Positions 2,002-32,632 of a stretch of DNA of 32,632 nucleotides are shown here, piece by piece. The stretch comes from a virus. Below the pieces are notes generated by a model. That model made no database searches. It was not told the origin of the DNA and saw only the letters and a list, made by a program, of their open reading frames with translations. A program made the translations under genes and the position numbers. Position 1 is the first letter of the stretch, and each line of letters opens with the position of its first letter. The DNA lies in IMG/VR virus record IMGVR_UViG_3300037883_000321, positions 1 through 32,632 of that record. One strand, 5' to 3'.

Positions 2002-2456
2002 GCTCTCACCCACTTTCCCTTGGTTTTCTTTACCTGGACCAAGCCGGAGCGACCACATTTCCGGCAGGTATGCTTGTGCTTATAGGTATGAACGATCGCT
2101 TTGCATTGCGGACACTGTTTGAAGTGGCGCTCTTTGCCGGGCTCGCACTTTGTCTTGTCCTCGGTCGCAGGAACGAGACCGTCGTGTTCGCAGTACCAGC
2201 AGGTGGTTGTGTCTCTGTACGCGTACATTCTGCGTCTGCAGTTAGGACAGAATTTCATCTTGCGGCCGCGCTTCTGCTTGGTTTGCTTCAGCGCAGAGGT
2301 GCGCATCTTCCGTCTGGACATCGCGAGCTTAAGATTGTCGTACTCGGCCTGCAGCTGCGCGATCTGCTGGAGTCGGTCTGCCGCCTTCGATGACTGCAGC
2401 GCGAAAATCTTTCTCTTCAGCTCGATTTGGGCGGAGACCATTTGATCTACCGTCAT
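1998..2456 (-). CDS. double zinc-ribbon protein with N-terminal helical region
   Basis: The start at ATG 2456 (MTVDQMVSAQ) gives 152 residues and an ATGA overlap with the MuB-type ATPase gene. Residues 1-60 are helical and probably coiled coil. Two similar zinc ribbons follow: CPNC-x11-CWYC (about residues 69-86) and CPQC-x11-CRKC (about 116-133), each followed by a Gly-Leu-Val segment, so the module is an internal duplication. The basic linker and lysine-rich tail suggest nucleic-acid or protein contact. It lies directly after the transposition ATPase, so a role in early gene control or transposition is possible; this is inference. In Mu-like phages small zinc proteins after B are usually unassigned. 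Confidence 0.8.
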   Translation of the reverse strand: MTVDQMVSAQIELKRKIFALQSSKAADRLQQIAQLQAEYDNLKLAMSRRKMRTSALKQTKQKRGRKMKFCPNCRRRMYAYRDTTTCWYCEHDGLVPATEDKTKCEPGKERHFKQCPQCKAIVHTYKHKHTCRKCGRSGLVQVKKTKGKWVRA

Positions 2457-3478
2457 TGGGCCTCCTTGAGCCGATTGGCCTTCGCAAGTTCGTCTTTGTA
2501 TTTCTTGATCGAGTCGAAAAGCAGGCGCGCGGAAATGTATTGCTGGTATTGCGGCTTGCCGCCATCGAAAGAGACCTTGCGCATATCGCGCGTGTAGCAG
2601 GCCTGAATGAGCTTGCTCATTTTTTTGGCCGAGATAGAACCAACGAGCGGTTCTAGTTCGAACCTGAAAATCGACTCGGCTTCCTGTTCGGAGAGACCGG
2701 GAAGCTCCGGGCCTTTTCTCAGCCGGGACCTCCATTGCTCCATGTCTAAACGCTCAAACGTTTCGTACAAACGATGGGAACCGGCAAAGATGAGTCCGCA
2801 GTGAGGCGGCTGATCGAGGAGTCCACGGATCGTTTCCAGGCAGTCGATAGTCAGACTCTGAGCTTCGTCAAAGACCAGGATCGTCTTGCGATCGCGCAGA
2901 TCGTAGGCGATATTGGCGATAGTTTTTTGAATGCTGCTGCCTGTGCTGAAACTTCCTACCGATTTGGCCACTTCCCTGACGACTGAAAGCGGCGTCATCC
3001 AGCGTGACGAGTAGATATAGAAAGCGGTCGCCTTATTGCCGTTCTTAATCTCCCTGCAATTGTTCTCGGCAATCAGGTGCTGCAGAACGTGGCTCTTCTG
3101 GGTGCCGGGAGCGCCGCGCAAGTAATAGGAGCATCGCTTGTCGAGAGCCTCCTTGAAGTAATTGCGCATGATCTTTACGTTGCTGGTGTCATGGAGATGG
3201 CCTTCGATCTCCAGGTCGAACCGGATGGGATTGCTGGACATGAACGACACGCAGGCGCGGACGATGTTGTTGTCCGAGCTTGCCATTTCTTCATAGCGAT
3301 CACCGAGAAATGCCTTGATCGCGCTCTTTGAATAACCAACACGGTAGGCGAACTGGCTGGTACTCAGGCCAGTCCGGGCAAGATATTCAATGACCTTGTC
3401 TCTTACCGCCGAGCTTTCATCGGATGAGCGGGAGAGCATTCTCCTTCGCATGTCGTGATTTAAGTGGGTTGTAGCCAT
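2453..3478 (-). CDS. MuB-type AAA+ transposition target ATPase
   Basis: A 341-residue ATPase equivalent to Mu gene B (about 310 residues). MuB-family proteins form ATP-dependent filaments on target DNA, activate the transposase and enforce target immunity. Residues about 24-60 look like a helix-turn-helix (LSTSQFAYRVGYSKSAIKAF), as in MuB. The Walker A motif is G122-A-P-G-T-Q-K-S-H130, Walker B is LVFDEA with D204/E205, and a sensor-1-like segment FAGSH is at 231-235. The C-terminal region (about 260-341) is helical, as in the MuB/TniB/IstB group. The gene starts 1 base from the transposase stop and is followed by an ATGA overlap, so A, B and downstream genes are co-translated. Confidence 0.93.
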   Translation of the reverse strand: MATTHLNHDMRRRMLSRSSDESSAVRDKVIEYLARTGLSTSQFAYRVGYSKSAIKAFLGDRYEEMASSDNNIVRACVSFMSSNPIRFDLEIEGHLHDTSNVKIMRNYFKEALDKRCSYYLRGAPGTQKSHVLQHLIAENNCREIKNGNKATAFYIYSSRWMTPLSVVREVAKSVGSFSTGSSIQKTIANIAYDLRDRKTILVFDEAQSLTIDCLETIRGLLDQPPHCGLIFAGSHRLYETFERLDMEQWRSRLRKGPELPGLSEQEAESIFRFELEPLVGSISAKKMSKLIQACYTRDMRKVSFDGGKPQYQQYISARLLFDSIKKYKDELAKANRLKEAQ

Positions 3479-6119: not shown

Positions 6120-6797
6120 ATGCCTAAAAGCATTAAGGGGAAGACCCGTTCAGAATTGGCAAGCAGAATAAGATCCTTACGGCTTCGAGCGGGACTGACT
6201 CAGGGGCAGCTTGCGGAGTTGTGTGGTGGAGTACGGCAATCCGTCGTCGCACGATGGGAAGATGGCAAGTTTGACCCACCTGGGCGTGCTTTAGTAGAAA
6301 TGTCGAGATTAGCGCTGGACAGCGAAAAGGCGTGGTGGCTCCAGCAAATAGGCTTACACGAGAGCGATCTTATTGTGAAGCAAGTCGGAGAGGATTTGGT
6401 CTCAATTCCTGTTCTCAAAGATCCAGCAGCGGCGGGAAGTGGCAGAGCCATCAACGAAAGCGAAATCGACCATTATTTGATGTTTCCAAAAGAAGTTGTG
6501 GGGAGTGGCACAGTAACAGGGCTGAGAGTCAGAGGCAATTCAATGTGGCCAATAATAGATGAAGGCTTTATCGTCCTTGTCGACACTTCCCAGAGAGACC
6601 CCAAAAGGCTTATCGACAATATTGTGGCTGCTAGAGAGGGAGACGGAGTCACGATCAAATATCTCAAAAAACGTGACAGATCATTTATCTTGACTTCAGC
6701 TCATCCAAGCCCGGCGCATCCCACAATCGTTCTAACCCCTGACAAAGATGTAGCGATCATCGGGAAAGTGATCAAATGGATTGGACAGCCCACTTAA
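6120..6797 (+). CDS. XRE-HTH / S24 peptidase-type phage repressor
   Basis: A 225-residue LexA/CI-type repressor. Residues about 14-65 are an XRE helix-turn-helix (IRSLRLRAGLTQGQLAELCG). The C-terminal S24 domain has the catalytic serine in G139-N-S141-M-W-P and the lysine in V-T-I-K180-Y, a spacing close to that of LexA. An Ala105-Gly106 pair in the linker (DPAAAGSG) is the expected self-cleavage site. Such repressors keep the early promoter off and are cleaved when RecA is activated, so this prophage should be SOS-inducible. The start at 6120 has a CAGGAAA site and defines the 59-base divergent region. A lipoprotein gene follows 27 bases after the stop. The local DNA is more AT-rich than the structural genes. 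Confidence 0.92.
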   Translation: MPKSIKGKTRSELASRIRSLRLRAGLTQGQLAELCGGVRQSVVARWEDGKFDPPGRALVEMSRLALDSEKAWWLQQIGLHESDLIVKQVGEDLVSIPVLKDPAAAGSGRAINESEIDHYLMFPKEVVGSGTVTGLRVRGNSMWPIIDEGFIVLVDTSQRDPKRLIDNIVAAREGDGVTIKYLKKRDRSFILTSAHPSPAHPTIVLTPDKDVAIIGKVIKWIGQPT

Positions 6798-31469: not shown

Positions 31470-31778
31470 ATGAGTGACGCGCATATCAAGCATACGCATA
31501 CGATCAAACTCCAGGACGGAAGCACATTCGATCACACCGCTGAAGCTGTGCGATTCAAACATCTGGCCGATGGAGCCATCGCCGTGTTCGCTACGTGTTG
31601 CGGGAAGGACGCTGAGGGATCGTGGCACGCGTTTTATGACGTTGCCAAAATGTCGCAGAATGACATCACTGTGGAAGTCCAAGGACACGTTCAAAGGAAG
31701 GCTGAGCACCATGCCTCTGCTCACCTTGGCAGGGAGTTTATGCAGACCTTAGTTAAGGAAGGACAGGTGGGGAAATAG
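31470..31778 (+). CDS. small hypothetical protein, last late gene (102 aa)
   Basis: The start is ATG 31470, six bases after a GAGGGAA site at the end of the tip gene. The product is His- and Asp-rich at the N-terminus (HIKHTHTIKLQDGSTFDHTA), with two adjacent cysteines (ATCCGKD) and a mixed alpha-beta body (WHAFYDVAKMSQNDITVEVQ). I do not recognise it. As the last gene before the phage right end, it could be a tail-fibre accessory or a moron. Confidence 0.62.
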   Translation: MSDAHIKHTHTIKLQDGSTFDHTAEAVRFKHLADGAIAVFATCCGKDAEGSWHAFYDVAKMSQNDITVEVQGHVQRKAEHHASAHLGREFMQTLVKEGQVGK

Positions 31779-31825: not shown

Positions 31826-31843
31826 GTGATATTCTGCTATCAC
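31826..31843. repeat. 6-base-pair inverted repeat near the right end
   Basis: GTGATA (31826-31831) and TATCAC (31838-31843) are perfect inverted arms around TTCTGC. It lies 47 bases after the last late gene. It may form a weak transcript-ending hairpin, without U-tract. Its loop carries the TTCTGC core that recurs in the right-end direct repeats, so it may instead be a degenerate transposase site. Confidence 0.35.
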
Positions 31844-31846
31844 GCA

Positions 31847-31948
31847 ATTCTGCGAGCCACAACAGGGCAAAATCGGTCTGGGGTTTGCTGCAGCCTAATT
31901 CTGCGTTGCTGCAGCCTAATTCTGCGTTTGCTGCAGCGCAATTCTGCG
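31847..31948. repeat. direct repeats at the phage right end (putative transposase-binding sites)
   Basis: The unit TTGCTGCAGC..AATTCTGCG (21 bases) occurs at 31885-31905 and 31906-31926 (identical) and at 31928-31948 (two substitutions). A fourth partial copy of the ATTCTGCG core is at 31847-31854 (and ATTCTGC again at 31831). All copies point the same way. Spacings of 21-22 bases for the three nearest to the junction are what adjacent MuA-type sites R1-R3 show. They end a few bases before the resumed host frame. Confidence 0.75.
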
Positions 31949-31955
31949 AGCTACA
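31941..31955 (+). mobile_element. predicted right terminus of the transposable prophage
   Basis: The terminal 15 bases read ATTCTGCGAGCTACA, ending in CA-3' like the Mu-type ends TG...CA. A near copy with one mismatch (C for T) lies at 31847-31861. The boundary is inferred: the host reading frame cannot begin before 31920 (stop TAA at 31917), and host-like coding (ASQDQIQKKLQ) starts at 31956. The left terminus lies outside the window; by symmetry it should begin 5'-TGTAGCTCGCAGAAT or similar. Confidence 0.6.
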
Positions 31956-32132
31956 GCGAGCCAGGACCAGATCCAGAAAAAGCTGCAAGAGGCGAAACAG
32001 TTCAAGCAGATGTACGACAAACCGGCGGTGAACATAGCGCTGACGTTTACCGAAGTGTTCCCGATCGGCCTGGTGGTAACGCTTCTCTCAGCTGTAATCC
32101 TGCGAAAGAAATCACCGCAACTGGCGGCGTGA
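31956..32132 (+). pseudogene. 3' remnant of host DUF4199-like membrane protein gene, disrupted by the phage
   Basis: The frame encodes ASQDQIQKKLQEAKQFKQMY and continues through ALTFTEVFPIGLVVTLLSAV to a TGA at 32130-32132, 58 residues in all. This is the C-terminal pattern of DUF4199-like proteins as I recall them: a short charged helix, then NxAxTFxExFPxGLxxTLxSAxILRKK with the last membrane helix. No start codon with a ribosome-binding site precedes it and it begins at the end of the phage repeats. It is therefore the downstream half of the gene into which the phage transposed; the front half should lie beyond the left phage end. The protein's role is unknown. Confidence 0.72.
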
Positions 32133-32146
32133 CGCATGATTCGCGT

Positions 32147-32174
32147 CCGGACGCTGGACGAACCCGGCGTCCGG
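32147..32174. repeat. inverted repeat after the host gene (terminator-like, no U-tract)
   Basis: CCGGACGC (32147-32154) pairs with GCGTCCGG (32167-32174) around 12 bases, 14 bases after the stop of the disrupted gene. It has no following T-run, so it may be a weak or Rho-linked end of the host transcript. The rest of the 104-base gap to the next gene shows only a weak TTGCGC/TAGCAT promoter pair (32201-32229). Confidence 0.4.
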
Positions 32175-32236
32175 GCGGAGAGAGGCCCCACGGTTTGCCA
32201 TTGCGCTGAATTTCGCACCTTGTTAGCATTACCGCC

Positions 32237-32632
32237 ATGCGCCGACAGATTATTTCCTTGTTGCTCCTGTCATTGTTGTCGTCCACCGCATTCGCCTACG
32301 CCGGTCTGGCCGGAAAATATACCGGCACCTGGACCGGAGCCCAAAGCGAAGGCACGATCAAGGTGGCCCTCTCTCAGGCCGAAAAAGGAACCTGGAATGC
32401 GGATGTATCGTTCACACTGGGCGACCAGGAAGTTAAATGTACGACCGTCTCCGTCAAAGTTGATGGCGAAAAACTGGTCGTAGTCTACGACTTCAGCGTG
32501 AGCGGCTTAGAGGCTGAGTCAACCATCACCGGTCAACTTAAAGGATCAACACTCGAAGGCACCTATTCGACCAAAGGCGCAGACGGGTCCCATGTTGACG
32601 ATGGGACATGGAAGGCGTCGCCGGCAAAGTAG
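32237..32632 (+). CDS. small secreted host protein (131 aa)
   Basis: The N-terminus MRRQIISLLLLSLLSSTAFA is a clear Sec signal peptide with an A-F-A cleavage motif. The mature part of about 110 residues is beta-rich with repeating elements (AGKYTGTWTG; GTIKVALSQAEKGTWNADVS; STITGQLKGSTLEGTYSTKG), resembling small beta-barrel proteins with repeated G-x-Y/W-x-G strands. There is no good ribosome-binding site before the ATG, and a weak promoter pair would place the RNA start almost at the ATG, so it may be leaderless. It lies beyond the phage end and belongs to the chromosome. Function unknown. Confidence 0.8.
   Translation: MRRQIISLLLLSLLSSTAFAYAGLAGKYTGTWTGAQSEGTIKVALSQAEKGTWNADVSFTLGDQEVKCTTVSVKVDGEKLVVVYDFSVSGLEAESTITGQLKGSTLEGTYSTKGADGSHVDDGTWKASPAK

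Follow-up and report, generated by a model that had tools for sequence, protein, structure and literature searches.

The analysed stretch of viral DNA (32,632 nucleotides; hereafter the window) very probably represents most of a Mu-like transposable prophage that entered its Acidobacteriota-like host by transposition into a DUF4199-type gene. The phage right end is well supported at position 31955, with host DNA from 31956 onwards; this junction, already proposed in a preliminary description, is upheld by homology to host proteins that starts at the codon at 31956, by repeats and a terminal CA immediately to its left, and by the similar ends of related prophages (Table 1). The left edge of the record falls inside the phage early region, with the phage left end outside the record; at its right edge the record runs on for 677 bases into host DNA and takes in a second host gene.

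Table 1. Features of the window (coordinates, strand and basis) and, in the last five lines, related prophages resolved at both ends (length, and 5-bp duplication with element termini; slashes mark element boundaries).
Feature	Position or length	Strand	Basis or sequence
Transposition ATPase (MuB-like)	2453..3478	-	AAA_22 E 3.5e-12; PHROG 296 DNA transposition protein E 1e-22
Mu-type DDE transposase, 670 aa	3479..5491	-	PHROG 310 transposase, E 1e-74
HTH/S24 repressor	6120..6797	+	family search
Last phage gene before right end	31470..31778	+	ORF list; start ATG 31470 is the analyst's choice
Degenerate internal copy of terminal sequence (..CGCAATTCTGCGAGCCACA)	31834..31862	+	repeat search, direct reading
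End repeat 3, same sequence as repeat 2	31885..31905	+	repeat search
End repeat 2 (TTGCTGCAGCCTAATTCTGCG)	31906..31926	+	repeat search
End repeat 1 (TTGCTGCAGCGCAATTCTGCG), presumed transposase-binding site	31928..31948	+	repeat search, right ends aligned
Terminal CA of phage right end	31954..31955	+	right ends aligned with five relatives; homology break, at its last three positions, agrees
Predicted right copy of 5-bp target-site duplication, GCGAG	31956..31960		inference from five relatives' duplications right after CA
Host DUF4199-type membrane protein gene, 3' part, 58 codons plus stop	31956..32132	+	sub-threshold PF13858, intact homologues, homology start
Inverted repeat 3' of DUF4199 stop	32144..32177		sequence repeat; function inferred
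Next host gene	32237..32632	+	131-aa protein, start resembling signal peptide
Prophage G097	43,512 bp		CAGAT duplication; CAGAT/TGGGGG...CAGCCCCA/CAGAT
Prophage G085	41,344 bp		AAAAG duplication; AAAAG/TGTGAG...GCAGCCACA/AAAAG
Prophage G064	43,320 bp		GTGAG duplication; GTGAG/TGTGAG...GGCAGCCACA/GTGAG
Prophage G083	38,476 bp		GGAGG duplication; GGAGG/TGTGAA...CGGCCACA/GGAGG
Element G021	14,489 bp		ACGAC duplication; left ACGAC/TGTGAGTACGGGAATT; right terminus GAGCCCCA

Near the left edge lie the genes for the transposase, its ATPase, a small regulator and the S24 repressor; those for terminase, portal, capsid and tail follow up to 31778, and late-gene families were matched for terminase, portal, capsid, head morphogenesis and minor tail proteins. 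The transposase, whose gene adjoins that of the MuB-like ATPase, matches PHROG 310 across residues 4-622, while its rve core falls narrowly below the Pfam cut-off. The last phage gene matched no family in Pfam or PHROG, and the last two phage proteins had no relatives in the viral collection. At the left edge, a DUF5131 (phage Gp37/Gp68-like) gene on the minus strand (1-522) is cut by the record start; no clear counterpart of it was seen among the seven related prophages described below. No tRNA gene was found within the window, and a tRNA-type attachment site was rejected on this result together with the gene remnant at the phage end. The earlier view that the element arrived by transposition into a gene is instead borne out by the Mu-type transposase and ATPase, the end repeats with terminal CA, and the duplications flanking five relatives.

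The interrupted gene lies in a plus-strand frame (31920-32132) that opens past the TAA at 31917-31919 and closes at the TGA at 32130-32132. As had been described, the frame lacks a start of its own: no ATG, GTG or TTG occurs between that TAA and the ATG at 32010, which is residue 19 counted from 31956. The 58 residues encoded from 31956 (P0001, ASQDQIQKKLQEAKQFKQMYDKPAVNIALTFTEVFPIGLVVTLLSAVILRKKSPQLAA) match positions 126-165 of the 165 in the Pfam DUF4199 profile (PF13858; E 4e-4) with 21.3 bits, under the gathering (curated) score of 32.3, and because only the last 40 profile positions are covered, the DUF4199 membership of the uncut protein rests on its homologues. Among 397 genomes from a single Acidobacteriota order, 79 contain such homologues (best E 3.4e-18), mostly within open frames of about 175-250 aa, the best homologue being 67-68% identical and lying inside an intact 175-aa protein. 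Most of the best matches align from residue 1 or 2, about 117 residues precede the point equivalent to 31956 in the intact homologues, and a second Acidobacteriota sample gave an identical set of best homologues. The sub-threshold Pfam match and the intact homologues thus sustain the assignment of these residues to the C-terminus of a DUF4199-type protein. The interval first attributed to the host gene, 31920-32132, had to be shortened, as only 31956-32132 is host sequence and the first 36 nt (31920-31955) are phage DNA.

The insertion cuts the host gene after roughly 117 of its roughly 175 codons, and a working protein is not expected from the 58-codon remnant; no function is known for DUF4199. 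The target gene is like those of the PF13858 membrane proteins in its matching C-terminal 58 residues and differs in that the window holds its 3' third only. The Acidobacteriota genomes searched yielded no uninterrupted allele of the same species, the nearest intact homologue being 68% identical. Downstream, the inverted repeat past the DUF4199 stop is possibly the terminator of the host gene, judging from its sequence. The 131-aa protein of the next host gene (P0002) had no strong family match and no close relative; in the 397 genomes its matches were confined to five and were weak (E about 2e-4 to 9e-4).

To place the break between phage and host, we built a profile from an alignment of 30 homologues and scored the window frame against each of its columns. 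The codons at 31956, 31959 and 31962 (A, S, Q) scored +2.6, +3.3 and +1.8 bits; the Thr codon at 31953 scored -2.8 bits, with Gly occupying that column in 26 of the 30 homologues. Upstream of 31953, seven of the next nine codons were negative, and over eleven codons only three rose above zero and six took the minimum score. Since the third base of the Gly codon is free, protein homology alone narrows the break to 31954-31956, and the CA end rule, together with the relatives, led us to choose 31955/31956 within this interval.

Abutting the break are three 21-nt repeats, pairwise 90-100% identical and spaced 21 and 22 nt. Their TTGCTG..AATTC core has no other occurrence in the window and also forms the triple end repeat of the G021 element, and a repeat resembling the window's closes the G097 prophage. 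No relatives of the exact 21-nt repeat, or of the first 30 bases of the record, were found in the viral collection. The degenerate internal copy follows the true terminus as far as GAGCYACA, beyond which the two differ; it may be an additional transposase site or an earlier end. Its version of the terminal 16 bases (AATTCTGCGAGCCACA) lies 93 bp inward from the true end.

Truncated DUF4199 genes also occur without a neighbouring phage (G072, L011), and the piece seen here might by the same token be an old pseudogene remnant, or a rearrangement beside the phage, that the phage never cut. We regard this as very unlikely, because the homology begins at the exact base where the end repeats stop, and because the remnant contains no stop or frameshift and reaches the usual C-terminus. 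The L011 piece itself (G072:C6, 1504-1644) is C-terminal only and starts near the same residue as the window's; no phage end motif was seen upstream of it. Mu-type phage virions package some host DNA at their ends. That the 58-codon frame is phage cargo gained in an earlier transposition nevertheless seems hardly credible, for nothing in support of it was found, the frame lies outside the terminal CA, and a search of the viral collection gave neither relatives of the DUF4199 piece nor any relative of the phage that carries it.

When the window transposase was used as query on the same 397 Acidobacteriota genomes, seven long-flanked prophages (G097, G102, G113, G085, G083, G205 and G064) proved collinear with the window over the stretch between the transposase region and the final tail gene. 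Both ends were resolved in five relatives, all of which have TG...CA termini and exact 5-bp duplications. Their right ends resemble that of the window, reading ...AGCYMCA or near it (GAGCTACA in the window; CAGCCCCA, GCAGCCACA, GCAGCCACA, CGGCCACA and GAGCCCCA in the relatives). Duplicate pairs found at the ends of G102, G113 and G205 lie within chance.

The best single check is the 14.5-kb G021 element, apparently a defective prophage, as it was a prediction: its terminus and the ACGAC were predicted by aligning its right end to the window, and ACGAC was then found at the left end. The two 21-nt-spaced right-end repeats of G097 share 16 of 21 bases with the window's, as good a match being reached in 0 of 2000 shuffles, and the chance of a 5-bp match between its TG and CA sites was 0.08 in the short regions tested. 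Removing the G097 element rejoins an open frame, near the 3' end of that frame, and removing the G083 element rejoins one of 706 residues, while the end repeat has an inverted match beside the G085 pair. Across the whole search space, about 300-470 pairs arise by chance for G064 and G083, so that their pairs were accepted because the terminal sequences are shared, and each is less secure on its own. Aligned without gaps, the window repeat and the right end of G064 agree at 11 of 21 positions at best, a match no better than those of shuffles; G064 therefore backs the terminus and the duplication, not the repeat sequence.

An AATT lies 13-16 bases from the terminus at 31955 of the window, at both ends of G021 and of G064, and at the left end of G097. 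The right end of G097 has a longer terminal segment with no AATT at 13-16, so that the spacing of the ends varies within the family. As an end can thus sit further from the last AATT repeat, the true end in the window could conceivably be the next CA (31962-31963), since GCGAGCCA likewise terminates in CA, and the first residues of the remnant would then be phage DNA. We consider such a shift improbable, given that the AATT spacing fits 31955 and that the Ala-Ser encoded by 31956-31961 are the commonest residues of both columns, in 21 of the 30 homologues. The left ends of G097, G064, G083 and G085 have in common a GWGTGGYGGGA or similar stretch, and its absence from the window is in keeping with a left end beyond the record.

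With the end placed at 31955, the phage transposase would have recognised the 21-nt repeats beside the end and paired both ends, nicked after the CA, and joined the CA-3' ends to a target cut 5 bp apart; host repair or replication would then have copied the 5-bp gap, giving the GCGAG duplication. Mu makes its 5-bp duplication through such staggered cuts, and B3 one of 6 bp (PMC8705779). By analogy with the relatives, GCGAG should also precede the phage left end. We predict about 117 DUF4199 codons ending in GCGAG, followed by a phage end that starts with TGT or TGG and has a GGAATT at 11-16, roughly 5-8 kb to the left of base 1; this distance derives from the 7.2-10.4 kb that separate the ATPase gene from the left end in four relatives.

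As in Mu, B3, D3112 and BcepMu (proposed 'Saltoviridae'), the DDE transposase is accompanied by an ATPase partner. Further features in common with Mu and transposable phages are the 5-bp target duplication of the relatives, insertion into genes, and Mu-like head protein matches; repeated end sites of the Mu kind lie beside a terminal CA at the right end in the window, and at both of the TG...CA ends in the relatives. In contrast to the Mu group, the early genes of the window, among them that of the transposase, point to the left and away from the late genes; the right end has three contiguous 21-22-nt repeats; and the relatives measure 38-43 kb. Against the phage records listed, the window transposase reaches an identity of only about 24-31%, and this along part of its length. 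The transposable prophages of Leptospira, a distantly related group known from genomes, are alike in their TG-CA ends and short target duplications (PMC8705779); they occupy other hosts, and the Leptospira study worked with a 6-bp scar and found TA-TA ends in one group (PMC8705779), whereas 5 bp and TG-CA were seen in all five relatives here. We found no description of the window's phage group in Acidobacteria in the open-access literature searched.

Several short elements with no phage late genes nearby were also observed (G125:C109, L062 8330-8510; G125:C111; and G099:C6, C45 and C83). They encode a transposase 40-43% identical to the window's, plus an ATPase partner. Three 21-22-nt repeats (ACTGCA..AATTC, TTGCTGCAACGCAATTC) lie upstream of the transposase at a distance of about 1-2 kb and, relative to the end, seem to be oriented opposite to those of the phage right end. 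The end of the G125:C109 element abuts a tRNA-Sec gene (L062 8420-8510), and the flanks of two others, judged by eye only, resemble tRNA 3' parts. In G099:C45 (L072, 12660-13700) a unit of 71-73 nt with a palindromic CGCTGAATTCAGCG core is repeated about fifteen times in an array.

We tentatively raise, as a possibility that we do not favour, that the phage is part of an undescribed transposable-phage lineage distributed across Acidobacteriota. Conserved ends would be particular to this lineage (AATT at 13-16 bases from a TG/CA terminus, and GAGTGGYGGGA close to the left end), and it would share its transposition module and end repeats with the short non-phage G125 and G099 transposons of the same order, one copy of which abuts the tRNA-Sec gene. 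If true, the module moved between phage and transposon and its target preference changed.

Landing inside a host gene is ordinary for Mu-like phages, and the understanding of Mu-like integration is unchanged by this insertion. What the analysis provides is a base-exact end for a transposable prophage in a poorly studied phylum, and the five independent insertions with 5-bp duplications show how such ends can be recognised in Acidobacteriota, which makes possible the correct trimming of prophage borders in metagenome records.
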